64,000 nt of DNA from assembly GCF_008001015.1 (NCBI RefSeq), contig NZ_CP042862.1, forward strand, positions 248,001 through 312,000, written 5' to 3'. Positions 810 to 63,376 of the stretch are shown piece after piece. Under the pieces are notes generated by a model, which was not told where the DNA came from, did no database searches, and worked only from the letters and a program-made list of their open reading frames with translations. Position numbers and translations under genes: made by a program. This DNA comes from Serinicoccus profundi. GTDB lineage: Bacteria > Actinomycetota > Actinomycetes > Actinomycetales > Dermatophilaceae. How positions within the stretch are numbered: position 1 is the stretch's first letter; the number at the start of each line of letters is the position of its first letter.

Positions 810-853
810 GCCCGTGACGATAGTCGGTGCTCCTGGGTATGCCGCCGCTCCGG

Positions 854-1915
854 TCAGGTGCCGAAGGCCGCGAGCACCGCGGCCCGGGGGACGTCGGCCA
901 CCGACGCGTGCTGCCAGCGGGGCTGGCGGTCCTTGTCGACGAGCTGGGCGCGGACGCCCTCGGCGAAGTCGGGGTGGGCCGCGAAGACGGGGCCCAGCCG
1001 CAGGTCCTGGGCGAGCACCTCGGGGATGCTCATCCTCGCCGCGCGGCGCAGTGCCTCGAGGGCCACCGCCACCGAGTGGGGTGAGCGGGCGCTGATGAGC
1101 TCGGCCGCCTGGTGCGCCTGGGGCGCAGTGTGCTCGCGCAGCCGGCGCAGGATCTCGGCAGGATCGTCGCCGCGGTAACACTCATCGATCCACGGCCGCT
1201 GATGCTCCAGCCAGGAGGTCTCAGCCTCCTCCCCGCCCACCCGGGCGGCCAGTGACCGGGCGTCCTGCGTCGGGTCCTCGCGCAGGGCGGCGAGGACCTG
1301 CTCCTTGACCGTCGACGGCACGAGGGCGTCGGCCATGCCCACGAGCAGGGCGTCCGCGCCCCCGACCGGGGCGCCGGTGAGCGCGACGTGGGTGCCGGTC
1401 TCGCCGGGGGCCCGGGAGAGCGGGTGCAGCCCCGCCACGTCGGGGAAGAAGCCGATGATGACCTCAGGCATCGCGAGCTGGGTCCGCTCGGTCACGAGGC
1501 GCACCGACCCGTGGGCCGAGACGCCGACACCCCCGCCCATGACGATGCCGTCCATCCAGGCGACGTAGGGCTTGGGGTAGTCCGCGACGAGCGCGTCGAC
1601 GGCATACTCCGCCTCCCAGTAGTCCACCGCCTCCTGCGACCGGCCGGCGAGGATCGCCTCGCGCAGCGCCCGGACGTCACCGCCGGCGCAGAGCCCGCGC
1701 TCACCGGCGCCGTCGAGCACGACCGCCGCGATCCGGTCGTCGTCGGCCCAGCGCCGCAGCTGGTGCAGGAGGGAGTCCACGCTGGCCCGGTCGAGGGCGT
1801 TGATGGCGCGGGGGCGGTTGAGCCGCACCCGCCCGAGGGGCCCGTCGACGGCATACACCACCTCCTCGCCGTGGCCCTCAGCCGGATGCCAGGTCAGGGA
1901 GGCGTCGTCGCGCAT
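854..1915 (-). CDS. Enoyl-CoA hydratase/isomerase family protein, 3-hydroxyisobutyryl-CoA hydrolase-like
   Basis: This 353-residue crotonase-fold protein matches the 3-hydroxyisobutyryl-CoA hydrolase branch, which acts in valine breakdown. The CoA-binding and oxyanion-hole segments are visible as CAGGDVRAL (near 76-84) and MGGGVGVSAHG (near 126-136). The two residues known as catalytic in the HIBCH subgroup are kept: Glu151 in A-M-P-E and Asp159 in F-F-P-D. Length fits the family. Enoyl-CoA hydratase activity is possible, but the FPD motif and the longer C-terminal half favour the hydrolase. It may be cotranscribed with lgt downstream. Confidence 0.85.
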   Translation of the reverse strand: MRDDASLTWHPAEGHGEEVVYAVDGPLGRVRLNRPRAINALDRASVDSLLHQLRRWADDDRIAAVVLDGAGERGLCAGGDVRALREAILAGRSQEAVDYWEAEYAVDALVADYPKPYVAWMDGIVMGGGVGVSAHGSVRLVTERTQLAMPEVIIGFFPDVAGLHPLSRAPGETGTHVALTGAPVGGADALLVGMADALVPSTVKEQVLAALREDPTQDARSLAARVGGEEAETSWLEHQRPWIDECYRGDDPAEILRRLREHTAPQAHQAAELISARSPHSVAVALEALRRAARMSIPEVLAQDLRLGPVFAAHPDFAEGVRAQLVDKDRQPRWQHASVADVPRAAVLAAFGT

Positions 1916-1939
1916 GCGTCGAGGCTCTCACGACGCACG

Positions 1940-1945
1940 TAGACT
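1940..1945 (+). promoter_or_regulatory. Candidate -10 element for the DUF5926 gene
   Basis: TAGACT fits the actinobacterial TAnnnT -10 pattern and ends 9 bases before the ATG at 1954. Transcription would start at or next to the start codon, so a leaderless or nearly leaderless mRNA is inferred. No purine-rich ribosome site is visible in between. Confidence 0.5.
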
Positions 1946-1953
1946 CGCCCGCT

Positions 1954-2862
1954 ATGGGTAAGGCATCACGCAAGAAGCGGCAGTCCGGCGCCAAGGACGC
2001 GCAGAGCACGGCGCGCCCGGCGCCCTTCGTCTCCCGGCCCTTCGAGGGTCTGGCCAGGGAGAGCGAGTGGGTGGCGATGCGGGAGATCCTGCCGGCCGCC
2101 ACCGCCCCGGTCACCGTGACCGTGCCGGAGGGCACGGCCGTCGCCGGGCGCGAGGTGCCTGCCGGTGAGCACCAGGTCACGCTCGTCACGGTCCTGCCGG
2201 CCGCGATGCCGGCGATCCACCGCGACAACGGCGAGGTGCTCGTCGCGCTGCAGTCCCGCACGAGCAGCGGCGACGCCTCCCGCGACATCGTCGCGGCCAC
2301 CCTCACGGCCCTGGCCAGCGACCCCGGCACGTCGGTCAACTCGGTCCGCCCCGCGACGAGCGAGACGCCGAGGCTGCAGGACGTGCTGGCCGACGGCCAG
2401 GAGCTCGAGCTCGAGGTGCACGAGGACTTCGGCTTCTGGCTGGGCGAGAACGCGAGCGAGGAGATGACCGCCGCGCTGGAGCAGATGAACGAGACGGCCG
2501 TGCCGATGGCGCGCGTCGAGGGCGTGCCGAGCGCCTTCTGGTGCCACATGTCGGGCCGGTCCTACATCCGCTGGATCCTCTCCGAGGACGAGGACACCGC
2601 GGTGCAGGCGCTCGCCCGCCTGCAGGCCGCGGGCGAGCACACGCTCGGCGAGGGCACCGACCTCATCGGCGCCTTCCGCGCCTGCGGCGTGCTCGTGCCC
2701 GTCCTCGAGGTGCCCGCCGACAGTGGCGCCGCGGACCACGCCGAGGCGCTGACCGCGCTGCAGGAGAGGTATGCCGCCGCCCTCGCCCAGGACGCACCGC
2801 TCACCGAGCCGGAGCGCCGGGCCAAGAGCGCCCTGGTCTCCCGCCAGGTCACGCTGCGCTGA
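1954..2862 (+). CDS. DUF5926 family protein
   Basis: A 302-residue protein with the highly basic N-terminus (MGKASRKKRQ) and the F-x-x-R-P-F-E-G-L segment that I recall as typical of the actinobacterial DUF5926 family. Some members carry misleading older annotations such as topoisomerase or SecA-like. No membrane segment or signal peptide is visible. The middle of the protein is acidic (residues 145-175) and the C-terminus is basic. Function is unknown. The basic tail at the N-terminus could bind nucleic acid, which is inference only. A glycosyltransferase gene follows after 5 bases, so the two are probably cotranscribed. Confidence 0.85.
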   Translation: MGKASRKKRQSGAKDAQSTARPAPFVSRPFEGLARESEWVAMREILPAATAPVTVTVPEGTAVAGREVPAGEHQVTLVTVLPAAMPAIHRDNGEVLVALQSRTSSGDASRDIVAATLTALASDPGTSVNSVRPATSETPRLQDVLADGQELELEVHEDFGFWLGENASEEMTAALEQMNETAVPMARVEGVPSAFWCHMSGRSYIRWILSEDEDTAVQALARLQAAGEHTLGEGTDLIGAFRACGVLVPVLEVPADSGAADHAEALTALQERYAAALAQDAPLTEPERRAKSALVSRQVTLR

Positions 2863-4389: not shown

Positions 4390-6570
4390 TCAGTCGCCGG
4401 GCCCTCCGGTGGCCTCAGCGCGTCCAGGGCCACGGCCGACCGTGGTCGTGCTCGCCCACAGGGCGATGCCGGCTGCGAGGAGGATGGTCAGGCAGAGGGC
4501 GACCGCGGCGATGCCGGAGTCGTTGAGGAGCCAGGCCACCGCCATACCCACCACTCCCGCAGAGGCCACGGGGGCGACTCCCGGCTCGCGCCACAGCCTC
4601 TCGGCCCACGCCGGCCGCCGCACCACCACCCAGGCGAGGCCCGCGAGCACGACGACAGCGAGCCAGGACAGGGGGTAGCTCACGAGGATCCCGAGGCTCT
4701 GGTCGAGCTTGCGGGTGACGATCCCCAGGGCCTCACCGTCGAGCACCGCCTGCACGAAGGCACCGAGGTGGGTCCGCTGCTCCGGGCCACGCAGCCAGTC
4801 GAGCACCATCGCCAGCACCGCCAGCGCGGCCGCCGCCCCCGCGACCAGCAGCAACGACCGCCACGTCCAGCGGACTCCGAGCGCCGCCAGCAGCACGAGA
4901 CCCGTGACCACCGCCGTCGCCGGCACGCTGCCGAAGTCGGCCCCCGCTGCCGGGGCGGCGCCCAGCACGAGCGTGCCCCCACCGAGCAGGGCGACCGCCA
5001 GCGCCGCACCCCGGCGCGGCAGCCAGCTCAGCACCGCGGCCAGCAGCACCAGGAGGGCGCCGAGCACGATGCCGAAGCCGACGTTGCCCTGACCGTAGAA
5101 CCGCCCCGCCGTCACCGGCTGCAGTCCCAGCACGCTGACCAGCCCCAGGCGGGAGGACCAGAGGGTGTCGACGCCGAGCACGACCAGCGTCACCGTCGCC
5201 ACGACGGCGGGCGGCAGGAGCGGGCTCGCGTGGCCTCGGGCGGTCAGCCGGGCTACCCCGACGATCGCGACCGCCATGACGAGAATCGTCAGGACCAGCG
5301 CCGGCCAGGGCTGCCCGGCCTGCCACCACGGAAGCACGCCGGCGAGGAAGGCCGCCGCAGGCGCCGCCATGACCGTCGTCGCGACGAACCCCAGGAGGGA
5401 TCGACGTCGTCGGCCGGTCGAGACCCTCTGCCGTGACCGCGCAGATCGGTCCAGTAGACCGGCGACCACCAGCGCGGGCAGGAGCACCACCGCCAGCGCT
5501 CCGAGGACCCACGGGGCCAGCGACTTCGCCAGGCTGATGCCCTCGGCGAGCTCGGCGGCGGAGTCGGACGGGGCGGCCGGAGTCGGGTCGGTCACGGCCT
5601 CGACCGGGTCCCCGGGGAGGTCGTCTTCAGGGGGTATGCCGGTCAGCGAGAGCAGCGTCGGCGTCAGGTCGACGAGCTGCACCAGTCCGCTCTGCCGCGT
5701 GGAGCCGGACGTGAGCAGCGTGGCCTCGGACGTGTCCTGACCGGCGGGGCCCTGCTCGGGGTCGGGCCCCTCGGACCCTGAGGTGCGCGCGATGGCCCGG
5801 GACGCGTCCTGGCCGGCCTCACCCGGCGCGGCACCGGCCCCGCCCTGACCGGAGACGAGCAGCACCTGGGCGTCGGCCCGCCCGGCGGTGTGGCCCATAC
5901 CGCTCACCAGCAGGGTGGTCCCCGGCGGCGCGTCCGCGATCAGGTCGGCCAGCGCCGCGTCGGTCTCCGCGAGGCGCCCGGAGCGATCACCCTCGAGGAG
6001 GGCGATCGACGCGACAAGGTGGAGCTCGCAGCCGGGGTCGAGGGTCGGCCGGGAGAGCAGGCCGGTCCGCTCCGTGTCGAGGACGGGCCTGCCGGCCGCA
6101 TCCGCCGAGGCGGTGAGGCCGTAGGTCGCGACGCACCCTCCCTCGGCCTCCACCGGGCCGGTGAGCTCGGCGAGGTCGGGCTCGGGGCCGCCTCGAGCAC
6201 CCCAGGGCGCGTCGGCCTCGAGGTCGCACCCGAGCGGCTCGAGGTCGGTCCGGGAGCCCGCGCCCATCGTCAGCCACGCGTCGGCCGCGCACGTCACCTC
6301 GTCGGGCCCGCGCACGACCAGGGCCGCGCTCCCGCCCGTGTCCGCCAGGCCCTGCAGGGTGGGGGTGGATTCGTCGATGAGGTCCCAGGTCAGGCCGGGT
6401 ATGCCCACGAGCACCACCGGCCCCTGCGACGTCGGCAGCGCCCGGGCCTGCGGTGCCTGCGCCGGGGCGACGCCCAGCAGAGCGGCCACCGCGGCCAGGC
6501 ACCAGGACCCGAGGACCGCCGCCACCAGCGCCCACGTGAGCTGCTGCTGCGGCCGGCCGGCGTCCACCAT
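4390..6570 (-). CDS. Large membrane protein with extracytoplasmic alkaline-phosphatase/sulfatase-like domain
   Basis: A 726-residue protein. An N-terminal hydrophobic segment (residues about 12-33) is followed by a roughly 330-residue soluble domain and then about ten membrane segments to the C-terminus. The soluble part has features of the alkaline phosphatase superfamily: V-V-L-V-G-I-P-G-L near its start, V-S-G-M-G-H-T in the middle, and V-D-L-T-P-T-L-L-S-L-T-G-I-P at its end. A low-complexity Gly/Ser/Gln-rich insert of about 50 residues lies before that last motif. The enzyme could act on a phosphorylated or lipid-linked envelope substrate, but none can be named. The ATG at 6570 is chosen because the hydrophobic segment follows at once; an upstream extension has no family character. 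Confidence 0.75.
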   Translation of the reverse strand: MVDAGRPQQQLTWALVAAVLGSWCLAAVAALLGVAPAQAPQARALPTSQGPVVLVGIPGLTWDLIDESTPTLQGLADTGGSAALVVRGPDEVTCAADAWLTMGAGSRTDLEPLGCDLEADAPWGARGGPEPDLAELTGPVEAEGGCVATYGLTASADAAGRPVLDTERTGLLSRPTLDPGCELHLVASIALLEGDRSGRLAETDAALADLIADAPPGTTLLVSGMGHTAGRADAQVLLVSGQGGAGAAPGEAGQDASRAIARTSGSEGPDPEQGPAGQDTSEATLLTSGSTRQSGLVQLVDLTPTLLSLTGIPPEDDLPGDPVEAVTDPTPAAPSDSAAELAEGISLAKSLAPWVLGALAVVLLPALVVAGLLDRSARSRQRVSTGRRRRSLLGFVATTVMAAPAAAFLAGVLPWWQAGQPWPALVLTILVMAVAIVGVARLTARGHASPLLPPAVVATVTLVVLGVDTLWSSRLGLVSVLGLQPVTAGRFYGQGNVGFGIVLGALLVLLAAVLSWLPRRGAALAVALLGGGTLVLGAAPAAGADFGSVPATAVVTGLVLLAALGVRWTWRSLLLVAGAAAALAVLAMVLDWLRGPEQRTHLGAFVQAVLDGEALGIVTRKLDQSLGILVSYPLSWLAVVVLAGLAWVVVRRPAWAERLWREPGVAPVASAGVVGMAVAWLLNDSGIAAVALCLTILLAAGIALWASTTTVGRGPGRAEATGGPGD

Positions 6571-6707: not shown

Positions 6708-6809
6708 CCGGCGACGGCGTGAGCGGGCGCGCTACGGAGCAGCCCGGGGTATGCCGCGGCGCCAGGGGAGTGCAGCGGGTGGCGCGCCGGGGGCGAGTGG
6801 GGGACGGCA

Positions 6810-6815
6810 TACCCT
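6810..6815 (+). promoter_or_regulatory. Candidate -10 element for the DUF4446 gene
   Basis: TACCCT ends 7 bases before the GTG at 6822, so the predicted transcript starts at the start codon (leaderless). The element overlaps a copy of the over-represented GGCATACC motif. Confidence 0.5.
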
Positions 6816-7351: not shown

Positions 7352-8416
7352 TCAGGAAGACCTCGAGCTCAGGGCGTCGATGTCGCGCCGCAGCTCGGAC
7401 TCCGAGGCGTCGGGTAGCCGCACGACGAGGCTGCCCGGGTCGACCTGGACCCGGATCGCGAGCGCCGACCCGATCGTGTCGCCGTCGATCTCCAGCTCGA
7501 CCGGCTTGTCCGACAGGACGCGCACCTCGGCGCCCTGGAAGTGCTCCACCCGGCGGTGCCCGATGCGCTTGCGGCTGGTCAGCTGGGCGATCGTGGCGGC
7601 CCACCCGATGACCCCCTCCGGCGACAGCAGGACGGTGTCGATCGACCCGTCGTCGGCCACCGCGTCGGGCAGCAGCGCCATGCCGCCCTGCAGCTCACCG
7701 ACATTGCCGACCATGACCGAGCGCACCCGGCGGTGCACCGACTCCGCGCCGTCGATCCGCAGGTCGACGGTGAACTGCGGGCCCTTGAGGTGCCGCAGAC
7801 CGGCGACGAGGTAGGCCAGCCAGCCGACCCGGGCCTTGAGCTTCTCCGGCACCGACGCCATGACCTCGGCGTCGAAGCCCAGGCCCGCCATGACGAGGAA
7901 GCGGTGCTCCTCCCGGACGTCCTCGTCGTCCCGGTCGTCCACGGCGTCGTCGAAGTCGATGTTGCGCGACGGGTCGTCCTCGTCCGCGAGCCGGTCGGCG
8001 AGCTGGGCCGAGGTCGGCCGGATGAGCTCCAGCAGGCACGTGTCGATCGCCGTGTCGGTCCCGGTCAGGGCGACCTCGAGCGCCTTGTCGAGCGAGTCGA
8101 TCGGCAGGTCGAGGTTGCGGGCGAGCAGGTTGCCGGTGCCGCCGGGCAGCAGACCGAGGGGTATGCCGGTCCCCACCAGCTCGGCACCGACCGTGCGGAC
8201 CGTGCCGTCCCCACCGAGCGGGCAGACGAGGTCGACCCCGGCCGCGATGGCCTCCCGGGTCTGACCGACCCCAGGGTCCTCCGCGGTCGTCTCCAGCCAG
8301 AGCAGGTCGCTCCACCCGTGCGTCTCGCAGGCGGCCTCGACCTGACGCCGTACGGCAGCGACGTCCTCGAACTTCGTGGGGTTGACGATGACTGCGGCAC
8401 GGCGCACAGAATCCAT
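7352..8416 (-). CDS. Diacylglycerol kinase family protein, YegS/LCB5-like lipid kinase
   Basis: A 354-residue protein with the diacylglycerol kinase catalytic domain, which phosphorylates lipid hydroxyls with ATP. Visible motifs are V-N-P-T-K at 11-15, G-G-D-G-T at 68-72 (nucleotide loop) and P-G-G-T-G-N-L-L-A-R-N at 91-101. A strongly acidic insert lies at about 145-170, rich in Asp and Glu, and is not part of the core fold. The C-terminal half has the G-x-G-x-D-A block followed by a beta-rich domain typical of YegS. It may recycle diacylglycerol released by phospholipid-consuming reactions; the substrate is inferred. Confidence 0.9.
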   Translation of the reverse strand: MDSVRRAAVIVNPTKFEDVAAVRRQVEAACETHGWSDLLWLETTAEDPGVGQTREAIAAGVDLVCPLGGDGTVRTVGAELVGTGIPLGLLPGGTGNLLARNLDLPIDSLDKALEVALTGTDTAIDTCLLELIRPTSAQLADRLADEDDPSRNIDFDDAVDDRDDEDVREEHRFLVMAGLGFDAEVMASVPEKLKARVGWLAYLVAGLRHLKGPQFTVDLRIDGAESVHRRVRSVMVGNVGELQGGMALLPDAVADDGSIDTVLLSPEGVIGWAATIAQLTSRKRIGHRRVEHFQGAEVRVLSDKPVELEIDGDTIGSALAIRVQVDPGSLVVRLPDASESELRRDIDALSSRSS

Positions 8417-9733: not shown

Positions 9734-9858
9734 CGCCCCAGCGGGCTGAGCGCCCCGGGGGCTGAGCCCACGGCATACCCCTGGCCCCGGCGGTCGACCC
9801 GACCAGGCACCGGCCCGATCTCCGTCGCGCGGCGGAGGCGGCGCGGGTGCGCGCTGCC

Positions 9859-11337: not shown

Positions 11338-11392
11338 GCCGCGGCATACCGCAGCGCCACCCGATTTCCGCCGCCGACCGGAGGGCCACCTG

Positions 11393-12141: not shown

Positions 12142-12177
12142 TAGCGTCGTCGGCATACCCGCGCACCCTGCGGTGCG
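12142..12177 (+). promoter_or_regulatory. Candidate promoter -10 and short leader hairpin before the ABC exporter genes
   Basis: TAGCGT at 12142-12147 fits a -10 element. The inferred leader carries a 6-bp hairpin (CGCACC at 12162-12167, CTGC loop, GGTGCG at 12172-12177) and then AAAGGGGAC before the GTG at 12198. This is a separate promoter candidate from that of the kinase, so the response regulator could act here. Confidence 0.4.
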
Positions 12178-13079: not shown

Positions 13080-14257
13080 GTGCCCGCGCCCCCTGGACCC
13101 TGGTCGCCGGCCGTGAGATCCAGGTCAAGCTCACCGACAAGAACTTCCTCATCGGCACCGGGCTGACCATCCTGCTGCTCCTGGCCGCGATGATCGTCCC
13201 GACCTTCTTCAGCGGCTCGGGCGCCAACTACGAGGTGGCTGTCACCGACGCGCAGGGCACCGCCCTCGTCGAGGAGCTGGAGACCACCCTGCAGGAGGAG
13301 TCGGCCGAGTCCTCGGCGACGCCGGTGACGGTCGCCGACCGCGCCGCGGCGGAGACCGCCGTGCTGGAGGGCGACGTCGACGCCGCGCTCGTGGCGGGGG
13401 AGGACTCGTGGGAGCTGCTCTCCGACGGGCCCGACACCGGCGGGCTCGGCTCGGCGCTGGCCGAGCAGGTCCGCACCGACGCCCTGGCCGACAACGCCGC
13501 CAGTGCCGGCACGACGGTCGAGGCTCTGACGGCCGGCACCGAGCTCACCACCGTGGACGTCGCGGAGGAGGAGGGGGGTATGCCGCCGATCGTCGCCTAC
13601 GCCATGGGCTTCGCCTTCGCGATGTTCTTCTACTTCGCCGCGATCATGTTCGGGATGCAGATCGCCAACAGCGTGGTCGAGGAGAAGCAGTCGCGGATCA
13701 TCGAGATCCTCGCCGCCAAGATCCCCACGAGGCAGTTGCTGCTGGGCAAGGTCCTGGGCAACACCGTGCTGGCCTTCGGTCAGCTGGCCCTCATCGCCGC
13801 GGTGAGCCTCATCGGGCTGACCTTCCTCGATCTCGACGTCGCACTGCCCGGGCTGGCGGGGGCGATCGGGTGGTATCTCCCGTTCTTCCTCCTCGGCTTC
13901 CTCGCGCTGGCCTGCGTGTGGGCCGCCGCCGGGTCGCTGGCCTCGCGCACCGAGGACCTGCAGCAGACGACGATGCCGTTGACGATGTTCCTCGTCATCC
14001 TCTTCATCGCCGGCCTCAACCTGGAGGGCGCCGCACGGCAGATCTTCTCCTTCATCCCCGTCGCCTCGACCCTGGTCATGCCCATGCGGATCCTCGAGGG
14101 CGACACCGAGCTGTGGGAGCCGATCCTCGCGCTGGTCCTCGTCGTCGGCTTCTGCGCCCTGACCATCGCCTTCGGTGCGCGGCTCTACGAGCGGGCGCTG
14201 CTGCATACCTCGGGCAGCCTGTCCTGGCGCAAGGCCATGACCTTGGCCAAGGACTGA
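13076..14257 (+). CDS. ABC-2 type permease, NatB-like
   Basis: A 393-residue permease with one N-terminal membrane segment (about 25-45), a large external domain (about 50-170), and five or six further segments from about 175 to 375. This is the topology of NatB-type ABC-2 permeases. The segment between the second and third helices contains V-V-E-E-K-Q-S-R-I-I-E-I-L, a family hallmark that couples to the ATPase. It forms an exporter with the protein at 12198; substrate unknown, possibly an antimicrobial or ion given the two-component system upstream. Confidence 0.92.
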   Translation: MSARAPWTLVAGREIQVKLTDKNFLIGTGLTILLLLAAMIVPTFFSGSGANYEVAVTDAQGTALVEELETTLQEESAESSATPVTVADRAAAETAVLEGDVDAALVAGEDSWELLSDGPDTGGLGSALAEQVRTDALADNAASAGTTVEALTAGTELTTVDVAEEEGGMPPIVAYAMGFAFAMFFYFAAIMFGMQIANSVVEEKQSRIIEILAAKIPTRQLLLGKVLGNTVLAFGQLALIAAVSLIGLTFLDLDVALPGLAGAIGWYLPFFLLGFLALACVWAAAGSLASRTEDLQQTTMPLTMFLVILFIAGLNLEGAARQIFSFIPVASTLVMPMRILEGDTELWEPILALVLVVGFCALTIAFGARLYERALLHTSGSLSWRKAMTLAKD

Positions 14258-15146: not shown

Positions 15147-15148
15147 GG

Positions 15149-49383: not shown

Positions 49384-52169
49384 CTTTCCTCCCCCACGCG
49401 CAGCGCCTGCGCGAGGTTGGTGCGCCCGGCGAGCCAGGCGCTGACGGTGACGGCGATCAGGACGGTGAGGACGACGGCGGCCAGCACGGCCGCGAGCAGG
49501 GGCAGGTCGAGGTAGAGGTCGGGCTGTCGGCTGCCGCCGGTGAGGCCGGTGAGATCCAGCCCCCGCAGCAGGACCCAGGGGACCCCGAGCCCCAGCACCG
49601 AGCCGACCGCGACAGAGGTCACCAGCAGCGGCGCGAGCTCCCAGGCCGTGAGGGCCCGGGTCTGGCCGGGCGCCAGGCCGAGGGTGCGCAGGGTGGCGAG
49701 CAGGCGGGAGCGGGCGCCCGAGCCCATGAGCTGGACGACGACCACGGCGAGGACGGTGAGCAGGGCGGAGACGACGGTCGCCCCGACGAAGAGCTGGCGC
49801 AGGCCGACCGTGACCGGCGCCTCGGTGAAGGCCTCCAGTCGGGAGGTCACGGTCGTCACCACCCCTCCGGTGCCGATGATCTGACCCACCCCGGCAGCGA
49901 CCTCCTCGGGATCGGCGCCGTCGGCGACCCCGATGAGCGTCGTCGTCGCCCGGGGCATCGTGCCTCCTGCCTCGACCCAGCGGTCGCCGTCGACCAGCAC
50001 TCCCGGCCCGGTCACGCGGATCCCCGACAGCTGGTCGAGGTGCCCGAGGACCTCCACGTCCCCGAGACCGGAGACGGTGACCGCCTCGGGGTCCTCGGGC
50101 ACGGCCTCGTCGGCGCCCCGCAGCGTGATCACCCCGGGTATGCCGTCGCTCTCGTAGAACTCCGGCGGTGGTCCGGGGATGAGCTCGGAGGAGGCATACA
50201 CCTGCCTGACCTCGGGCTCGACCACCCAGATCCGGACGGGGGTGCGCTCCCCGTCGACGACCAGGCTCGCGGTGGACCCGCTGTCGGCGACCCCGCCGAC
50301 GGCGGTGACGCCCTCCACCCCGCGGATCTCCTCCCGCAGCTCCTCGGTGAGGACCGGCCCGTTGAGGCGTACCGGCGCGCCGTTGTCCTCCCAGGCGGCG
50401 ATCTGCGCGCCCCGGGTGACCGTGGAGAGCAGCACCGCGCTGATGAGGGCGACCGCCGTGCCGAGCACGACGGCGAGCGTGGGGACGAGGCCGCCCGCCG
50501 GGTCGCGCAGGGCCCGCGCCGCCCCGAGGAAGGGGGTGAGTCCGGGGCGACCACGCAGCGCGGCGGTGAGTGCTGCCAGCGGCAAGGGGTAGAGGCGCAG
50601 CGTGATGACGCAGGCCGCGAGGGCGAGCAGGACCGGCGTGGCGGCGGCGAGCACGTCGATGCCGGTCGCGCCGGCGTCGTCACCCCGTGCCTCCCGGCCG
50701 AGGAGTCGCCAGGTGGCCACCCCGGCGAGCCCGACGACCACCACCTCGACGACCCAGCGCCACCGGCTGCGGCTGCGACCGGCCAGGTCCTGTCGCTGCT
50801 GGAGCAGTGACGCGTCGTCGAGCGAGGTGGCCAGGGCGAGCGAGGGGATGACCGCGACAAGGACCGTGACGAGCCACTGCCACCACGGGGTCGGTCCCGG
50901 CACGAGGAGCATCGCCGCGGCGTGCCCCACGAGGGCCGCCGGCACCCCCAGGAGCAGCCCCTCGACGGCGATGAGCCGACGCAGCTGCGAGGGCGCCGCC
51001 CCCCGTGCCAGGGCCAGGGCGATCGCCGACCGTCGCCGGTGGACGACGAGCCGTGCACCGAGGGCGGCGACGGCGAGGGCGACCCCCAGCGGACCCGCCG
51101 CGATGACCGCCAGCAGCGAGCTCGTGGCCCGCTGCTGGCTCGCGATCCGCTCCAGCGCCTGCGTCAGCTCGGTGGTGAACAGCGGGATCTGGGGGCTGCC
51201 GGCGTCGAGGATCTCCTCGGCGCTGGCGAAGGTGTGCTGCTCGGCGAGGAAGCCGTTGACCTGCCCGGTGAGAGCCTCGACCTGGCCCGTGGTGCCGGTC
51301 ACGGCAGTGGGGTCGACGGGGTACCAGACCCGCATGCGGACCGAGGCCGGCGGACCGACGGCGCCGCGGTTGTCGGGGGAGAGGAAGCCGGTGAGCAGGG
51401 CCTCCGCGCCGAGGTTGGGGTCGTAGAGCGTGCCCATGACGGCCCCGTTGTCGACGTGCTGCCACCGCGGGTCGTCGGGGTCGCGGGGGACGTAGGTGCC
51501 GCTCAGCACGAGGTCGGTGCCGGGCAACGGGTCACCCACGCCCAGCTGCAGCTCCTGCGCCGTCTCGGCGAGGACGACGATGGGCACCGGCGCGTCCTCC
51601 TCCGGCTGCTCCGGCGTGTCCTGACGGTCCTCCCTGCCGCGGAGGGTCGGGGTCTCGCCCACGACGAGCTCCGGCCAGTCGCCGTCGACCAGCTCCACGT
51701 GCCCGCGCAGGTCGGGGTCGACGGCCAGGCTCAGCGTCGCGGTGTAGTAGCCCGTCTCGACCTCCGGGTCGAAGGGGACGTCGGACTCCAGACGCGCCAG
51801 GAACTGCGGCGACCCGAGGACGTCACGCAACGGCTCGGGCTGCTGGGTGCGGACGCGTTCGGCCCCCTCGCGCAGCGGTGCCCAGCCGTCGGCCGAGGGG
51901 TCGCCCGTGAGGTCCTCGGCGCTGCCGTAGATGACGGTCCGCTGCCAGTCGCCGCGCAGGTCGCGCTGCGCCGCGGAGAGCGCGGTGATCTCCTCGGTCA
52001 GCTGGCGGCCCTGGACGTCGATGAGCCCGCGGGGGGCGGCGGTGAGCAGCAGCGCGACCACGCCGACGAGCACGGCCAGACCGACCGACACCCACGGGTC
52101 GGTGGCGAACTGCCGCCGGGCCAGGCGCCCGGCCCCGGTGCTCGGAGGTATGCCGTGGCGCGGGGTCAC
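49380..52169 (-). CDS. FtsX-like permease, 929 residues
   Basis: A large permease of the MacB/FtsX class. An N-terminal membrane segment lies at about 30-50 and a large external domain at about 60-340. Membrane segments follow in two FtsX modules, the first near 345-540 and the second near 790-920. It should work with the ATPases at 47439 and 48151. Members export lipoproteins, peptides, or act in cell-wall signalling. The stop overlaps the next start (ATGA). Confidence 0.9.
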   Translation of the reverse strand: MTPRHGIPPSTGAGRLARRQFATDPWVSVGLAVLVGVVALLLTAAPRGLIDVQGRQLTEEITALSAAQRDLRGDWQRTVIYGSAEDLTGDPSADGWAPLREGAERVRTQQPEPLRDVLGSPQFLARLESDVPFDPEVETGYYTATLSLAVDPDLRGHVELVDGDWPELVVGETPTLRGREDRQDTPEQPEEDAPVPIVVLAETAQELQLGVGDPLPGTDLVLSGTYVPRDPDDPRWQHVDNGAVMGTLYDPNLGAEALLTGFLSPDNRGAVGPPASVRMRVWYPVDPTAVTGTTGQVEALTGQVNGFLAEQHTFASAEEILDAGSPQIPLFTTELTQALERIASQQRATSSLLAVIAAGPLGVALAVAALGARLVVHRRRSAIALALARGAAPSQLRRLIAVEGLLLGVPAALVGHAAAMLLVPGPTPWWQWLVTVLVAVIPSLALATSLDDASLLQQRQDLAGRSRSRWRWVVEVVVVGLAGVATWRLLGREARGDDAGATGIDVLAAATPVLLALAACVITLRLYPLPLAALTAALRGRPGLTPFLGAARALRDPAGGLVPTLAVVLGTAVALISAVLLSTVTRGAQIAAWEDNGAPVRLNGPVLTEELREEIRGVEGVTAVGGVADSGSTASLVVDGERTPVRIWVVEPEVRQVYASSELIPGPPPEFYESDGIPGVITLRGADEAVPEDPEAVTVSGLGDVEVLGHLDQLSGIRVTGPGVLVDGDRWVEAGGTMPRATTTLIGVADGADPEEVAAGVGQIIGTGGVVTTVTSRLEAFTEAPVTVGLRQLFVGATVVSALLTVLAVVVVQLMGSGARSRLLATLRTLGLAPGQTRALTAWELAPLLVTSVAVGSVLGLGVPWVLLRGLDLTGLTGGSRQPDLYLDLPLLAAVLAAVVLTVLIAVTVSAWLAGRTNLAQALRVGEER

Positions 52170-55100
52170 CGGATCTCCTCCCGGTAGTCACGGTCCAGCG
52201 CCTGGGCGCGCACCCGTCGGGCCAGGACGGCGAGCAGGGCCAGCAGACCGACCAGGGTCGTGCCGAGGAGCACCGCCCACGGCGTGGACTCGAGCCGCAG
52301 GGCAGCGGGCAGCCGGAGCCGTCCGGGGGCCGTCGTCGAGGTGGCCAGCTCGGGCACCACCGCGGTGCCCACGACCCACCCGGCGGCCAGGCCGAAGACG
52401 ACGGCCAGGAGCACCACCCCGCCGAGCTCGAGGGCGCGCGAGCGCGCCTGCGCGGCGGGCGGCATACCGAGGGCGCGGAGCACGGCGACCTCCGGCCGAC
52501 GGGCGGACAGCAGCGTCGCCGCCACCGCGGCGACCCCGGTGAGGGCCAGCAGGACCGCACCGGCGGAGGCGACCCAGAAGACGAGGCGTGCGGCGCTGGT
52601 CGCATCGGTCACCGACACCGAGCCGGGTCCGGTGACCGCACGCAGGTCCTGGCGCTGGGCCAGCGCGGACACGGCGGCTGCCGGGTCGCCGCTGGCGTCC
52701 GCCCAGACCTGGTCGGGCCACGGCAAGGAGCGTTGCTGCTCGGCGAGCAGCGAGGCGACGACGCGCACGTCGGCCAGGGCGGCGACCGTGCCGCGTTGCC
52801 CTGGCAGGGCGTCGACGACGGCGCTCACCTCGGCCGGCAGTCGGCCCCCGGCCACGGAGAGGGTCAACGGATCACCCGGGGCGAGGGCGGCCGCGGAGGC
52901 GACCTCGGTGGTGATGGCGACCGGCACCGAGCCCGACGCGGGCGTCTCCTCCGGCGGTCCGCCGTCCAAGCTCCCGGCCACCGCGGCACCGCTGAACTCG
53001 GCGCCGGGCGCGAGCACCACCTCCGCGGCCAGGCCCGACCGCACCTCCGGCCACTGCACGCGCCACGTCGCCGCAGACGTGTCGTACCACGTCGGGATGC
53101 GCTCCTCGTTGGTCTCGACGGAAGAGATTAAGGCCGTGCCCTCGTCACCGACGAAGCCCTGATCGGGCTCGACGGTCGTGCGGTAGGTCGCGTCCTCCAC
53201 CGCCTCGGCGGCGGCGACGAGCGGCGCGACCTGCTCGGCCGACAGGGCCCCGGTGCTGCCCCACCCGCCGTCGGCCAGGATCGGCTCACCCCCGGCCCGG
53301 AGCCGCAGATCGACGCCCAGGCTGGTGGAGCCCTCGTAGAACATCTGCTCCTGGCCCGGCTGGTCCGCGGCCACCTCGACGGTCACCGCCTCGACCGTGT
53401 GCTCCCGCCCGGCGGGCAGGGTGAAGGTCACCGACTCCTGCGTCGTGCCCGGGCTCGCCGTGAAGTCGCTGAGCGTCTCGGGGTCGTAGTCGAGGGTCGG
53501 TCCGGGCGCCTGGACGAACTCGGAGGTGACCGTGGCGCTGAGCCCGGTGGCGACGTCCTCGACGAGCAGGGAGACCCGCAGCGGCACCGGCGCAGCAGCC
53601 GCCTCCACGACGCCGTCGAGGCGTTGGGTGACGCGCTCGGCGAGCGGCGGCGCCTCAGGGACCTCGGTCTCCCCCTCCGGGATGTCGGTGCCCTGCTCCG
53701 CAGCGATCTCGTCCAGCTGCTCCTCGACGCGGACGATGTCGTCGAGCCGGGCGATCTCCCAGCGGTCGGCGGTGCGCTCGGTCGAGAGCGTGAGCTCGAG
53801 CTCCTGCGCGCCGGGGGGAACGGCGATCGGCGTGCGCTGCTGCTGCTCGCCATCGGTGGCGATCAGCTCCTCCAGGCCGCTCGGCACGACTCCTGCCGGT
53901 ATGCCGTCGGGCACGTTGGCGACGGCCGCGAGAGCCTGAGTGTCGGCCAGGGTCAGGGGCACCGGCACGTCGCCGATCCGGGCGCTGTCCTCCACCCAGA
54001 CCAGTGCGGCGGAGGAGACCTCCGGCAGCTCGGTCAGGTCGGGGGGAGGATCGGCCAAGGTGCTGGCCGACCGTGGCGCCGGGGGCCGCACGAGGTCGGC
54101 GCGCAGCTCGGCGCCCTCGCTCACCGCGGCCAGGTCGTCGCGCAGCTGGGCGCTGGTGCCGGAGTAGAGCGCCGCGAGCGTCGTCGAGCCCGCGGCGAGG
54201 ACGACGAGGACGACGGGCACGGCATACACCTGCAGGTGCCGGCTGACCTGCGCGGAGGCGAGGTGGTGGGTGGCGGTGCGCGAGGGGCGGGTGGCGACCT
54301 CGAGCAGCCGGGTGAGCGGGCCGAGGAGGGCCATGGCGGCGACGGCGCTCGCGGCCAGGAGCAGGGCCGGGGCGGCCCCGGCCACCAGGTCGGTGCCCAG
54401 CGTGCCGTCCTCGGCGCGGGTCAGGGGGGAACCCGCCCGGCGCAGCTGCCACCAGCTCAGCGCTGCGGCAGCCAGGACGACCACCACGACGGCGATGGTC
54501 GTGGCCGCACGGGCGCGGCCGGACCGGTCGGCGACCGCCTCCCCACCGGAGAGCCGCCGGGCCTGCAGTGCGGCGATGACGGCCAGCGCCAGCGAGATGC
54601 CGACGAGGGTCGTCAGGGCGGTCAGGACGAGCCGACCGAGCAGCTCCTCACCCCCGGGCACGGCCTGCATCACCGCCCAGGCGAGGCCGGCGCCGAGGAC
54701 GGTGCCGACAGCGGCGACGACGACGGACTCCAGCAGGCCGGTCAGCAGGACCTGCTGCCGGGAGGCGCCGCGGGCGACGAGGAGCTGGGCCTGCGGCGCC
54801 CGCGTCGCGGCGAGGAGCCGGGCGAGTTGCACGACCGCCAGACCGGTGACCAGCACGAGGACCGAGAGCGGGATGACCCCGAGGGCCCGGGCGGTGGCGA
54901 GGTTGGTCGAGGCCTGCGCGGCGGTCGGGGCGAGGTCGCCCTCCACCTGGATGCCGCGGACGGCGACGCCCTCGGCCTCGCGCAGGTCGAACCGGAGGTT
55001 CTCGGCCCCGGCGGCCAGCACGGCGAGGTCGTCGGGCTGGATCTGCGCGCTCTCGGGGCGGACCGGCCAGCGCACGAACGGTGACCCCACCTGCTGGGCG

Positions 55101-55976: not shown

Positions 55977-56754
55977 GAGCATCGACCGGACGCGACCAGT
56001 GGAGTGCCTCCTGGACGACGCGGGTGGCGAACTCCTTCGGCAGCACCTGGTGCCCGGTGGTCGCGGCCGTGATGACGAGCTCGGCGCGGGTCTTCCGGTA
56101 GAGCGCGTGGTCGCGGACCGAGGAGATGAGCCCCAGCTGGTCCTCGAAGCTCTTGTCATGCTCGTTGGTCAGGATGGTGAACGAGGGGATGTGCCCTTCG
56201 TGGCGGAACCTCTCCCACACGTCCACGCGCTCCGGGTGGGCGGCGCGCAGCTGCGCGATGGACCCGTGGATGACGTGCTCCTCGACCTTCTTGATCGCCC
56301 CGGGGAACCAGCGCTGGAAGTCGATCTGCGGCACCTCCACGACCGCGTGGGAGTGGGTGACGGCGGCTGCGCACAGCGCCCCGAAACCGCCGAGTGACGA
56401 CCCGTAGTAGACGACGCGATCCAACGGTATGCCGCGCTGCTCCGCCTCGGCGGCCACCGTCTCTGCGATGGCGTGAATGGTGTCGTGCTGCGCATCGAGG
56501 TACCACGCGCCGTCCGGGACGGGGTTGTCGCGCAGCCCGGGATCGGCCACCGACAGCACATGGCTGCCCGCCCAGGAGCTCGCCCAGGACCAGCGGTGGA
56601 AGGCCGGGAACCTCCGGTCCTCACGCCCCGGTACGAGAGCGTTGGACATCAGCACGACCATGCCGTCGGCCTCGTCGTTCATCGACAGGTAGTCGATGTC
56701 GAGGCCACTGCTCGTCGACCGTGTCGTATACGGCAGGTGGGGCTGCGTCGTCAC
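55969..56754 (-). CDS. Alpha/beta hydrolase-like protein
   Basis: A 261-residue cytoplasmic protein with a nucleophile-elbow motif Y-Y-G-S-S-L-G-G-F-G-A-L, which fits G-x-S-x-G-G of alpha/beta hydrolases. A late His in T-G-H-Q-V-L could complete the triad. It resembles bacterial proteins in polysaccharide or lipid clusters with an unknown substrate. No signal peptide is visible. It lies between family-A repeat arrays on both sides, with the stop in the last unit of the 55849 array. Confidence 0.75.
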   Translation of the reverse strand: MTTQPHLPYTTRSTSSGLDIDYLSMNDEADGMVVLMSNALVPGREDRRFPAFHRWSWASSWAGSHVLSVADPGLRDNPVPDGAWYLDAQHDTIHAIAETVAAEAEQRGIPLDRVVYYGSSLGGFGALCAAAVTHSHAVVEVPQIDFQRWFPGAIKKVEEHVIHGSIAQLRAAHPERVDVWERFRHEGHIPSFTILTNEHDKSFEDQLGLISSVRDHALYRKTRAELVITAATTGHQVLPKEFATRVVQEALHWSRPVDAPG

Positions 56755-56859: not shown

Positions 56860-58175
56860 CAGTCGTCCCGCTGGTCAACGATCCGGCGCGCCTTGCCGAC
56901 CGAGCGTTCCACGCCACCCTCGCCGAGCACCACGACCTGGGCGCTGGTCCCGATCCGGTCCTTGACCTGGCCCGCCAGCCGGATGGCGAGCCGCTCCCGG
57001 TCCTCGCCGCTCAGCCCCGGCTCACCCTCGACGTTGATGGTCAGCTGGTCCATCCGCCCGGGCCGGGTCAGGACGCACTGGAAGTGCGGGGTCAGCCCCG
57101 GTATGCCGAGCACCAGTTCCTCGATCTGCGTCGGGAAGACGTTGACTCCCCGCACGATCATGAGGTCGTCGCTGCGCCCGGTGATCTTGGCGAGTCGCCG
57201 CATACCGGGTCGTGCCGTGCCCGGGAGCAGCCGGGTGAGGTCGCGGGTGCGGTAGCGCAGGACAGGCATCGCCTCGCGGGTCATGGCGGTGAGGACGAGC
57301 TCGCCCTCCTCGCCGTCGGCGACCGGCTCCTCGGTGATCGGGTCGATGATCTCGGGGTAGAAGTGGTCCTCCCACAGCGTCAGACCGTCCTTGGTCTCGA
57401 CGCACTCCTGCGCCACGCCCGGCCCCATCATCTCCGAGAGACCGAAGATGTCGGTCGCGTGCATGGCGCAGCGCTGCTCGATCTCGGCGCGCATCGCCTC
57501 GGTCCACGGCTCGGCGCCGAACACACCGATCTGCAGCGAAGTGCCGGCCGGGTCGACGCCCCGCTCGACCATCGCGTCCATGAGGGAGAGGAAGTAGGAC
57601 GGCGTCACCATGATGACGCGCGGGCCGAAGTCCTCGATGAGCTGGAGCTGCTTCTCCGTCTGCCCGCCGCTCATCGGGACGACGGTGCACCCGAGCCGCT
57701 CGGCCCCGTAGTGCGCGCCGAGGCCGCCGGTGAACAGGCCGTAGCCGTAGGCGACGTGCACGAGGTCGCCCGGGCGCGTCCCGGCGGCGCGCAGCGACCG
57801 CGCGACGAGGTCGGCCCAGGTGCTGATGTCGCCCTGCGTGTAGCCGACGACGGTCGGTCGACCGGTCGTGCCGGAGCTGGCGTGAACGCGGACGCACTGC
57901 TCACGCGGGACCGCGAACATCCCGAACGGGTAGTTGGCTCGCAAGTCGGCCTTGGTGGTGAACGGCAGCAGGCGGATGTCGTCGAGGGAGGTGATGTCGT
58001 CGGGGTGGACGCCGAGCTCGTCCAGCTGGCGGCGGTAGTGGTCGACGCCGTCGTAGGCTCGGCGAACGCAGGTCTGGAGCCGCTGCAGCTGGGCGGCGCG
58101 GAGCTGGTCGACCGACCAGGTCTCCGCCTCGTCGTGCAGGTCGGGGCGTGGGCCGATGTCGGGCAGCGTCGCCAT
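56859..58175 (-). CDS. paaK: Phenylacetate-CoA ligase
   Basis: A 438-residue adenylate-forming ligase that converts phenylacetate, ATP and CoA to phenylacetyl-CoA, the first step of the phenylacetate pathway. The P-loop-like motif S-S-G-T-T-G-R-P-T is at 100-108. Y-G-A-E-R-L and F-G-L-S-E-M-M-G are typical of PaaK. The C-terminal motif for CoA ligation, D-L-M-I-V-R-G-V-N-V-F-P, is present. Length is normal. The other paa genes lie at 58787, 59280 and 63555, with other genes in between. Confidence 0.95.
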   Translation of the reverse strand: MATLPDIGPRPDLHDEAETWSVDQLRAAQLQRLQTCVRRAYDGVDHYRRQLDELGVHPDDITSLDDIRLLPFTTKADLRANYPFGMFAVPREQCVRVHASSGTTGRPTVVGYTQGDISTWADLVARSLRAAGTRPGDLVHVAYGYGLFTGGLGAHYGAERLGCTVVPMSGGQTEKQLQLIEDFGPRVIMVTPSYFLSLMDAMVERGVDPAGTSLQIGVFGAEPWTEAMRAEIEQRCAMHATDIFGLSEMMGPGVAQECVETKDGLTLWEDHFYPEIIDPITEEPVADGEEGELVLTAMTREAMPVLRYRTRDLTRLLPGTARPGMRRLAKITGRSDDLMIVRGVNVFPTQIEELVLGIPGLTPHFQCVLTRPGRMDQLTINVEGEPGLSGEDRERLAIRLAGQVKDRIGTSAQVVVLGEGGVERSVGKARRIVDQRDD

Positions 58176-58247
58176 ACGGGCAGGGTATGCCGTCGCTCGC
58201 CCCGGCCCGACAGCGCGTCGTCAGCACCTCCTCGACCCGGCTCGGTG

Positions 58248-58790
58248 TCAAGGCCGACCGGTCTGCTCGGCCTGCCGGACGTCCTGCAGGAGCCGGGGTG
58301 AGCGCCAGCGGCCCACCTCCCGGGTCCAGGAGGTCAGCGGGTAGGCGAGACGCACGACGTAGTAGTTGACGAACTCGAGGGCGGCGAACGCCCAGACGCA
58401 GAGGGTCAGCACGAGCGGGCCCGGGCCCTCGCCGCCGCGCACCAGGATCATCACCAGGCCCACCGCCAGCAGAAGCGGGTCGAGGACGCGGAAGGCACGG
58501 TATGCCCCGGCCACGCTCCGCGGCATCCTGCCCCTCCCGACCCACGATCGCCCCAGGAGCCAGTAGGCCCCGGCCTGCACCAGCACGAGGACCAGGGGGC
58601 CGAGCGCCCACCACAGGGTCGTCGCCTCCCTGCTGCTCCACCGTGGCGTCAGCGTCGACCAGGCGATGAGGCTGAAGACGCCTGCCGCGGTGAGCTCGCC
58701 GAGGCCCAGCGAGAGATAGCGTCGGCGCAGGGCCTCCCGCCTCCCCTGACCGAGAGGCACGCCCGGCGTCTCCCGACCACCGTGGGTCAC
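58248..58790 (-). CDS. Uncharacterised membrane protein between paaK and paaI
   Basis: A 180-residue protein with four likely membrane helices (about 25-45, 55-75, 95-112 and 122-142) and basic ends. No family recognised. The GTG at 58790 overlaps the paaI stop (GTGA), so it is coupled to paaI. It could be a lipid or solute membrane protein linked with the pathway, but nothing in the sequence supports a specific role. The next 72 bases up to paaK hold nothing. Confidence 0.7.
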   Translation of the reverse strand: MTHGGRETPGVPLGQGRREALRRRYLSLGLGELTAAGVFSLIAWSTLTPRWSSREATTLWWALGPLVLVLVQAGAYWLLGRSWVGRGRMPRSVAGAYRAFRVLDPLLLAVGLVMILVRGGEGPGPLVLTLCVWAFAALEFVNYYVVRLAYPLTSWTREVGRWRSPRLLQDVRQAEQTGRP

Positions 58791-59224
58791 GGGTTCGGGC
58801 GCAGGGCGCGGCTGTGCCCGCGGAACTCGGCGACGACAGCATTGTCGGTGGCGCGGCATACCGTGACATCCGTGATGCCGCTGCGGCCGGAGATGAGGCG
58901 CTCCCGGGCCGTGGCGACGAGCACGTCGCCGAGACGGGAGGGGAGGAGATAGGTGATGTCGCAGCTGGCGGCGACGGTCGTCCGGCCGGTCGCGTTGCAG
59001 GCCAGGGCGAAGGTCGAGTCGGCCAGGGTGAAGATGTAGCCGCCGTGGGCGATGTCGTGTCCGTTGACCATGGTGTCGGTGATGGTCATCCGGGTATGCG
59101 CGTGGCCGAGGTCGCCGTCGTCGTGGTGGTCGACGCCGACGTCGAGGAGCTCGATGCCGAGGGTGGCGGAGGCCTTGTCCTGCTCCCACATGCGCAGGAC
59201 GTGGGCGAGGTCGGTGCCGCTCAT
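58787..59224 (-). CDS. paaI: Hotdog-fold thioesterase of phenylacetate pathway
   Basis: A 145-residue thioesterase of the PaaI type that frees CoA from dead-end hydroxyphenylacetyl-CoA products. The signature H-G-G-Y-I-F-T-L-A-D-S-T-F-A-L-A contains the active-site Asp and Gly, and N-G-H-D-I-A-H precedes it. The start M-S-G-T-D-L is at 59224. The stop overlaps the next gene; the start is 55 bases from the paaH stop. Confidence 0.92.
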   Translation of the reverse strand: MSGTDLAHVLRMWEQDKASATLGIELLDVGVDHHDDGDLGHAHTRMTITDTMVNGHDIAHGGYIFTLADSTFALACNATGRTTVAASCDITYLLPSRLGDVLVATARERLISGRSGITDVTVCRATDNAVVAEFRGHSRALRPNP

Positions 59225-62177: not shown

Positions 62178-62194
62178 GCAGGGCGCGTCCAGAT

Positions 62195-62236
62195 GGTCCC
62201 GTGGGAGTGGGCGCATATGCCCACTTCCACGGGACC
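62195..62236. terminator. Near-perfect 18-bp hairpin (family B) after the MerR gene
   Basis: Arms at 62195-62212 and 62219-62236 match at 17 of 18 positions around the loop GCATAT. It begins 18 bases after the MerR stop. The same family lies at 63379-63479 after the next gene. No T-run follows, so terminator function is inferred. Confidence 0.65.
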
Positions 62237-62282
62237 TTCTATGCAGGGCTGTGGATGACGGACAGCCGGCGCGGACATCTGG

Positions 62283-62416
62283 GTGCAGAGTTGCCGGGAG
62301 AGGCCGTGCCACGGGGAGGTGACGTAGGGGTGCAGAGTTCCAGGGGAAGGGATGCCGTGAGGTGCAGAGCTCCAGGGGAGGGGCTGATGGTGGAGAGCTC
62401 CAGAGGGAGGGAGGCC
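62283..62416 (+). repeat. Four degenerate GTGCAGAG-type direct repeats before the DUF559 gene
   Basis: Copies begin at about 62283, 62330, 62362 and 62391. A common core is GTGCAGAGCTCCAGGGGAGG with changes. The last leads into the ribosome site of the gene at 62417. They could be regulator sites or a slippage-prone tract. The stretch 62178-62416 has no gene I can support. Confidence 0.55.
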
Positions 62417-63376
62417 ATGGGGGTGGAGAGGGCTGGGACGGGACGGACGCCGTCCGCCCGGCGTCGGGCATGGCGCCAGGAGGTAGGGCGCCAGGTGGCC
62501 CGGCGGCACGGCGGCGTCGCCAACCGTGCTGACCTGCTGCGGGCGGGACTGGCCGACCACGACGTGCGCGCCGAGGTCGATCGTGGCGTGTGGCACCGCG
62601 CCGGATGCCACACCCTCTGCATCGAGGGAGCGGCACCGCAGGGTGAGGGTCTGCTGTGGCGGGCGCTGTGGGAGTCGGGGCCGCGCGCAGTGCTGGACGG
62701 TCCCACCTCCCTCATCGCCGCCGGTCTCCTGCACTGGGAGGAGCCCCTCGTCCACGTCTGCGTGCCGCGCAACGCCACCGTCCGCGACATCCCCGGGGTG
62801 CGCTGTCACGTGGTGCGGGACATCGGCCCGACGATCCCCTTCGGCCTTCGCCGCACCAGGCCGGAGGTCGCCCTCATCCGTGCCGCCGAGTGGGCGCGCT
62901 CCGACCGGGCCGCCTCGACCCTGATCGCCATGACGGTGCAGCAGCGTCTCGTCCCTCCCGCGGCGGTCCTGGACCGGTGGTCGCAGACGCGCCGGTCCTC
63001 CCGGCGGCGCCTCCTCGACTCGGTGATCCGCGACGTCTGCGACGGGGCCCACTCGATCAACGAGCTCGACGTCGCCCAGGCGTGCCGAGCGCGCGGCATA
63101 CCTGAGCCGACTCGGCAGCAGGTCCGCAGGACCTCGACCGGGACCGTCTACCTCGATCTCTTCTGGGAGGGCTTCGGGGTGCACGCGGAGGTCCAGGGCG
63201 CGCACCATCTGTGGGGCCTGAACGGGGTGGACGACGCCGTGCGCGGCAACGCCCTGGCCGTCGGGGCGCGGGGGCTGGTGAGCCTGCAGATCCCGGTCCT
63301 GGGCTGGCGGCTGCACCCGGAGGTCTTCCTCGACCAGATCGCCGACGCGCTGCGCGCGGGAGGGTGGGCCGCTTGA
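62417..63376 (+). CDS. AbiEi-like/DUF559 protein
   Basis: A 319-residue protein. The first 75 residues form an AbiEi-type antitoxin winged-helix domain (H-G-G-V-A-N-R-A-D-L-L-R-A-G-L). The C-terminal 100 residues are DUF559-like, with the nuclease-fold pattern L-D-L-F-W-E-G-F-G-V-H-A-E-V-Q-G-A-H-H resembling Vsr-type endonucleases. No paired toxin gene is adjacent, so a type IV system is not shown. The ATG at 62417 is picked because GAGGGAGGGAGG lies just upstream. The gene is bracketed by family-B hairpins. Confidence 0.75.
   Translation: MGVERAGTGRTPSARRRAWRQEVGRQVARRHGGVANRADLLRAGLADHDVRAEVDRGVWHRAGCHTLCIEGAAPQGEGLLWRALWESGPRAVLDGPTSLIAAGLLHWEEPLVHVCVPRNATVRDIPGVRCHVVRDIGPTIPFGLRRTRPEVALIRAAEWARSDRAASTLIAMTVQQRLVPPAAVLDRWSQTRRSSRRRLLDSVIRDVCDGAHSINELDVAQACRARGIPEPTRQQVRRTSTGTVYLDLFWEGFGVHAEVQGAHHLWGLNGVDDAVRGNALAVGARGLVSLQIPVLGWRLHPEVFLDQIADALRAGGWAA

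Follow-up and report, generated by a model that had tools for sequence, protein, structure and literature searches.

A 64,000-base stretch of the chromosome of Serinicoccus profundi (contig NZ_CP042862.1, positions 248,001 to 312,000) was analyzed for the non-palindromic octamer GGTATGCC, which differs from its complement GGCATACC. This whole stretch is referred to as the window and its coordinates are counted from its first base. The window has a GC content of 72.5% and carries 43 exact copies of the octamer, 26 on the plus strand and 17 on the minus strand, spanning 836 to 63102; over 100 dinucleotide shuffles the average was 0.72 copies and the highest count 2. The first-pass annotation of this DNA had reported about 43 copies in both orientations and in coding and intergenic DNA alike; both statements were borne out, 30 of the 43 lying in coding DNA and 13 outside it by our own rough gene calls.

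Plus-strand copies, all exact matches, are located at 836-843, 2768-2775, 5633-5640, 6398-6405, 6748-6755, 8160-8167, 13577-13584, 15028-15035, 19295-19302, 20622-20629, 24082-24089, 26081-26088, 31939-31946, 37375-37382, 38522-38529, 40313-40320, 41560-41567, 42434-42441, 48137-48144, 50137-50144, 52147-52154, 53898-53905, 56426-56433, 57100-57107, 58184-58191 and 58499-58506. Minus-strand copies, likewise exact, are located at 6806-6813, 9772-9779, 11343-11350, 12152-12159, 15710-15717, 21028-21035, 23812-23819, 31092-31099, 33609-33616, 35249-35256, 38405-38412, 38994-39001, 45078-45085, 45406-45413, 52461-52468, 58855-58862 and 63095-63102. The copies at 6748-6755 and 6806-6813 form the first and second arms of an inverted pair. 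No copy lies between 26089 and 31091. A Pnkp-type gene with AAA_33, metallophosphatase and PNKP ligase domains occupies 24561-27179.

The whole genome, a single contig of 3,475,711 bases, holds 1,695 copies of GGTATGCC (858 + 837; ∼0.49 per kb) against 24 (13 + 11) of a control word with the same letters reversed. A 455-kb sample of this genome was assembled from the window and 20 stretches around the chromosome, 4 of them picked for gaps, and contained 196 copies; a second-order Markov model predicted 10.7, a figure already raised by the presence of the word. Genes were called by codon-position GC and left uncurated. A codon null was then generated by permuting synonymous codons, such that every protein and the overall codon usage were kept. 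Across 365 kb of coding DNA this null gave 8.3 copies of GGTATGCC and 8.7 of GTATGCCG, where 147 and 178 were seen, which bears out the earlier claim that the word overrides codon usage. Of the palindromic near-forms in the 455-kb sample, GGCATGCC was under expectation (24 vs 47.1) and GGTATACC only mildly over it (10 vs 2.4). The 175 gaps between copies had a mean of 1,740 and a standard deviation (sd) of 1,714 bases, corresponding to roughly exponential spacing. GGTACGCC was scarce in the same sample (9 vs 30.7 expected), as were the tetramers CTAG and GTAC (0.33 and 0.53 of second-order expectation). Origin by a single mutational step, for example deamination of GGTACGCC, was rejected on the general scarcity of GTAC and on the many kinds of one-base difference seen between orthologous sites.

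Enrichment of one-base variants defined a strict GTATG, a looser sixth base and then CG. In this genome a 5' G was favoured and the last base tolerated; the usual form is gGTATGCCg with the core GTATG-N-CG. The word that is read is GTATGNCG rather than exactly the 8-mer GGTATGCC. The 8-mer had been put forward as the unit, and it is indeed enriched, but as part of this wider word with its 5' G preference. At position 6 all four bases were enriched about equally in the relative G033, and GTATGCCG alone was enriched in a Terrabacter sample.

The isoleucine codon ATA had been described as occurring almost only inside the motif, which was mainly right. In our gene calls for the window 12 of 17 ATA codons lie inside it, and in 529 kb of this genome, with 4,726 Ile codons in total, 40 of 60 ATA codons lie inside the core GTATGNC and 20 elsewhere. 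ATA accounted for 1 of 715, 1 of 762 and 0 of 540 Ile codons sampled in the word-less relatives G022, Phycicoccus HDW14 and G122, respectively. The suggestion that some copies form the -10 element of a promoter found no support. When 40 of the 64 kb were scanned for promoters of the E. coli sigma-70 type, the only type covered, one promoter-like site was returned, at 41324-41351, which overlaps no copy, and a -10 role was rejected on this basis.

With dnaA-dnaN at position 1 taken as the origin and the terminus assumed to lie opposite, the 529-kb sample held 114 leading-strand and 112 lagging-strand copies of GGTATGCC (190 and 178 of GTATGNCG), and a check for strand or replichore bias thus gave none. 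A signal of segregation or of replication polarity is disfavoured by this result. The orientation of neighbouring copies showed a suggestive lean towards opposite directions: within 600 bases, 39 neighbours in the own-genome sample were inverted and 16 direct (an inverted fraction of 0.71; 90 and 36 for GTATGNCG), where 300 control words gave a mean inverted fraction of 0.44, an sd of 0.11 and a highest value of 0.77. Several relatives and other dialects showed the same lean, but G007 did not (5 vs 5). One intergenic inverted pair of this genome, at L133:15240-15285, forms a perfect 19-bp hairpin and is a possible terminator; inverted pairs of uptake sequences have been discussed as terminators (PMC2346458).

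Sites were compared with those of relatives at 78-85% nucleotide identity. Where one species has the word, the 8-mer aligned to it in the relative was identical at a frequency of 0.59-0.78 for eight of nine relatives and 0.40 for G004, against 0.21-0.29 (0.21 for G004) for flanking 8-mers matched for codon phase. Among 40 positions alignable in seven species the word was present in all seven at 8 and in one at 10; this comparison excludes 125 site instances from relatives that had no assignable position on the window. Regional copy number is 43-47 in each of the seven species (over 64 to 80 kb of fetched sequence), with genome totals of 1,207 to 2,180. One-base differences between word and non-word in relatives fall at all eight positions and include many kinds of change. 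Conservation above the flanks combined with turnover is as expected from drive or from selection at the level of the genome.

GGTATGCC was denser in non-coding than in coding DNA of this genome (0.527 vs 0.402 per kb). It was likewise denser in non-coding DNA in the other samples of the GTATG dialect, as was GTATGNCG except in G033 (1.78 coding vs 1.69 non-coding). A prophage inside comEC carries 1 copy in the 13.1 kb sampled in G002 and 1 in the 14.4 kb sampled in G017, where host DNA of the same genomes carries 11 in 32.9 kb and 11 in 32.6 kb. The word is under-represented in the newly acquired DNA that was sampled and, in the GTATG dialect, in coding DNA, as are the DNA uptake sequence (DUS) of Neisseriaceae and the uptake signal sequence (USS) of Pasteurellaceae. 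When the window was divided by alignability in six relatives, copies per kb were 0.42 where none aligned (6 sites), 0.81 where one to three did (4 sites) and 0.74 where four to six did (33 sites). A 32.9-kb stretch of the own genome chosen for its gap (363501-396400; L121-L122) holds 2 copies. Eight of its 26 called genes were scanned and matched a P-type ATPase, a cation-efflux protein, a Mutator-family transposase, TniQ, an oxidoreductase, an HTH protein, ResB and Hsp70.

The distribution of the word was followed through relatives. Among named genomes, an Ornithinimicrobium MAG gave the best SerRS match (81%) and falls in the genus of the present genome. Thirty other genomes of the same genus contained 38 to 2,180 copies of GGTATGCC each, and 22 genomes from other families of the order 3 to 111 each. 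A family sample of 163 genomes in 48 genera was used, which includes records of Terrabacter, Phycicoccus, Nostocoides, Humibacillus and Austwickia. Genomes with at least 400 copies of GTATGNCG and twice the count of its reversed control, both thresholds of our choosing, were classed as word-bearing. The motif does extend to sister genera: GTATGNCG was abundant in 97 of the 163 genomes and 29 of the 48 genera, with dialects in others.

Dialects were assigned by the codon null on fetched stretches. This procedure placed GTACGNCG in G151, Kribbella and, with few copies, Austwickia; GGATGCCG in Humibacillus and G203 and, more weakly, Nostocoides; GTACGCCG in G157; GGTACGCC as the word of Enemella; and a weak GGACGCCG-like word in Propioniciclava. 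The dialects GTATGNCG, GTACGNCG and GGATGCCG share one grammar across genera. One genus contains two of them, GTACGNCG in G151 by the codon null and GTATGNCG in G152 and G153 by whole-genome count. Whole-genome counts of GTACGNCG were 13,672-28,057 (∼1.6-3.2 per kb) in five Kribbella-type genomes (G207-G211), 8,164 in G151 and 409 in the own genome. GTACGNCG was judged by the codon null, as its reversed form, which contains CATG, serves poorly for comparison; Cellulomonas, Kineosporia and Rhodococcus hold GTACGNCG at 1.7 to 3.3 times the reversed control, yet near the codon null in their loci.

An unrelated word, CCCCTTCG, was found in two genera without GTATGNCG, namely g49, of which four of 15 genomes were sampled (L213-L224, L197-L199, L232), and g58, of which one of three was sampled (L227-L229). 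Counts were 155 vs 28.8 for pooled g49 and 37 vs 6.1 for g58. CCCCTTCG ranked first in four of the five sampled genomes and was level with GCAGCACC in G122. A total of 205 copies were present in 320 kb from g49, in both orientations and denser in non-coding DNA. No clear word was found within the stretches sampled from G109, G205, G094 and G032, and no such word in one 21-kb locus of M. terreus.

In the own genome comEA (SLBB + HhH) adjoins comEC (805 aa) and both are intact. Three loci with T2SSE-family ATPases scored above the cut-off, two of them beside a T2SSF gene, and probably encode Tad/Flp pili. Competence in Micrococcus luteus, a member of the same phylum, relies on machinery of this kind, namely ComEA, ComEC and Tad/Flp pili, although the paper describing it gave no match for 'uptake sequence'. 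The presence of competence genes is weakly informative, because ComEC was found in 161 of the 163 family genomes. In Phycicoccus HDW14 (G064 = G187), which is without the GTATG word, comEC is split by a 44-kb insert and a frame break and comEA is broken; all 12 of 12 genomes of its genus, g2, are without the GTATG word. G022 has lost the word, and its comEC is visible only to a contig end. As a predictor of word loss, breakage of comEC gave uneven evidence, not systematic across genomes, and was set aside. ComEA was considered as the reader of the dialects and rejected, its C-terminal domain looking alike across dialects by eye.

The reading that we put slightly above even is that the word is a DNA-uptake-sequence-like self tag. 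The first-pass annotation had offered recombination, segregation, methylation or uptake as possible roles, an interpretation that is partly supported: among these an uptake signal fits best, and segregation and a RecBCD-Chi role are disfavoured. Abundance and strand symmetry match known uptake sequences, as do the dialects, the hairpin pairs and the scarcity in prophage and, for the GTATG dialect, in coding DNA; the uptake reading is based on these matches. DUS is likewise short, non-palindromic and present in many copies on both strands, occurs in Neisseriaceae as eight dialects with a common core at family level (PMC3630211), is scarce in newly acquired DNA (PMC7811141) and includes some inverted, hairpin-forming pairs (PMC2346458). 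It differs in that the organisms here are monoderm actinobacteria with another word, in that the type IV pilin N-methyl family had no match in this genome, so that no ComP was seen, and in that uptake is here a proposal. The USS has a Pasteurellaceae subclade with a different motif (PMC2346458), comparable to the occurrence of GTATGNCG beside the genera with CCCCTTCG; here, unlike USS, unrelated words occur within one family that also has several point dialects. Both USS and DUS are described as scarce in new DNA and in coding DNA, with molecular drive given as the explanation (PMC7811141).

We infer that the reader belongs to DNA uptake and that uptake depends on the word. A DNA-binding competence component at the cell surface would bind word-carrying DNA, a Tad/Flp pilus subunit being the first candidate. 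Tagged fragments would be passed preferentially to ComEA/ComEC and then recombined into the chromosome. Because uptake and recombination would favour tagged alleles over untagged ones, molecular drive would build up the word wherever a near match exists, on either strand and at the cost of codon choice. Drive, rather than selection at each site, would maintain the word. New dialects, with C for T at position 4 or G for T at position 2, would arise from changes in reader specificity, as would unrelated words.

A broader proposal is that this is a third independent lineage of uptake sequences, in high-GC Gram-positives and with competence pili of the Tad/Flp type in place of type IV pili. It would comprise a dialect family G[T/G]A[T/C]GNCG across Dermatophilaceae, Kribbella and Propionibacteriaceae and the unrelated CCCCTTCG in two genera, so that word recognition would have switched several times in one family. 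We hold this proposal tentatively, at a little under even; it had stood at even and was lowered because the dialect of Kribbella and G151 is denser in coding DNA. PMC7811141 places uptake sequences in only two families, Pasteurellaceae and Neisseriaceae. No actinobacterial uptake word was found among the open-access papers listed, as judged by title, and, by title, none of the matches listed for the literal word was on the subject. An uptake-type word in actinobacteria would, if true, represent another origin with probably a different pilus type, and the word-bearing, dialect-switched and word-less sister genera would serve as natural replicates for the evolution of uptake specificity. Addition of their own word to donor DNA could then make some soil and sediment actinobacteria transformable.

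Several observations weigh against the uptake reading. The copy numbers of GTACGNCG in Kribbella far exceed the ∼1,500 quoted for Neisseria in PMC2346458, and the density of this dialect in coding DNA exceeds that in non-coding DNA (2.77 vs 1.76 per kb in Kribbella, 1.84 vs 1.22 per kb in G151). Positions 1-38000 of the own genome (L119-L120, chosen for a gap), which start with dnaA-dnaN, hold just 6 copies, and a sparse stretch therefore need not be foreign. A bias to gene ends, as in Pasteurellaceae (PMC2346458), was looked for in the own genome and not found (p 0.66; Terrabacter GTATGNCG p 0.03). The type IV pilin N-methyl family PF07963 had no match in the own genome, where 8 of 14 control genomes match, and thus no ComP-type receptor was seen. 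The C-terminal HhH domain of ComEA looks alike, by eye, in word-bearing and word-less relatives. The word is kept in four genomes with a broken comEC, which is split by prophage in G002 and G017, internally deleted in G014 and in two frames in G176; recent loss of comEC could explain these four. Conversely, G032, G109 and G205 have full-length comEC matches and are without the word. Natural transformation gave no match in the papers listed for these taxa.

Of the alternatives to uptake, the first is an origin like that of HIP1, the highly iterated palindrome of cyanobacteria. A methyltransferase would read part of the word, and methylation-directed mismatch repair would make and keep copies. 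HIP1 is also an octamer over-represented genome-wide, with other words in some lineages; such palindromes are lineage-specific, are replaced by alternate words, are linked to methyltransferases and deviate preferentially at their first and last bases (PMC4390886). Word replacement between genera was seen here as well, and one-base variants were enriched mainly at the ends and at position 6 of GTATGNCG. HIP1, however, is palindromic and methyltransferase-associated, and the present word is non-palindromic, while its one-base differences, spread over all eight positions and of many kinds, do not correspond to one repairable mismatch. We regard this origin as unlikely.

A Chi-like site, read by an intracellular recombination nuclease that switches from degradation to repair and so protects self DNA, appears quite unlikely. 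Chi of E. coli is strand-biased; no leading-strand bias was found here. RecC is present in the own genome, and the tendency of neighbouring copies to face opposite ways would suit such a site. Across the family sample, though, 41 of the 97 word-bearing genomes had RecC, as did 39 of the 66 that are word-poor, a difference that if anything runs in the opposite direction (Fisher p 0.04, uncorrected for kinship), and GTATGNCG occurs alike in RecC-bearing (g1, g38) and RecC-less genera (g30, g41). RecBCD-Chi was rejected because the word lacks leading/lagging bias and RecC presence does not follow it. Chi is likewise an over-represented octamer that differs between lineages (PMC8022716), and both it and the architecture-imparting sequences (AIMS, which are like the FtsK-orienting polar sequences, KOPS) are octamers in excess for which DNA-processing proteins are the presumed readers (PMC8022716, PMC5993296). 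AIMS are defined by abundance on the leading strand, unlike the near-equal counts obtained here.

A binding site for a nucleoid-associated or chromosome-organising protein with a co-evolving DNA-binding domain is similarly improbable. The genome-wide occurrence on both strands, the near-exponential spacing, the conservation of sites and the excess of inverted over direct neighbours would all be consistent with such a protein, but the absence of the word in the near relatives G022, G109 and G205 and its turnover between species with similar regional counts are hard to explain in this way. We know of no nucleoid protein of this kind. Finally, an explanation by codon or dipeptide usage, by dispersed repeats or by chance has a negligible probability: most window copies are coding, but the codon- and protein-preserving null refutes a usage effect, copies are denser in non-coding than coding DNA, and dispersed repeats were rejected because flanks are without strong consensus beyond ∼1 base on either side.

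The comEC gene is split at codon about 281-286 by inserts of ∼40-44 kb in G017 (L148/L149), G002 (L150/L151) and HDW14 (L145/L146). A large serine-integrase-type gene (phrog_95) lies at each junction, and two of the three inserts also yielded endolysin or tail genes. In G135 and G136 pieces of comEC lie ∼89 and ∼27 kb apart. In these genomes comEC looks like a repeated integration site.

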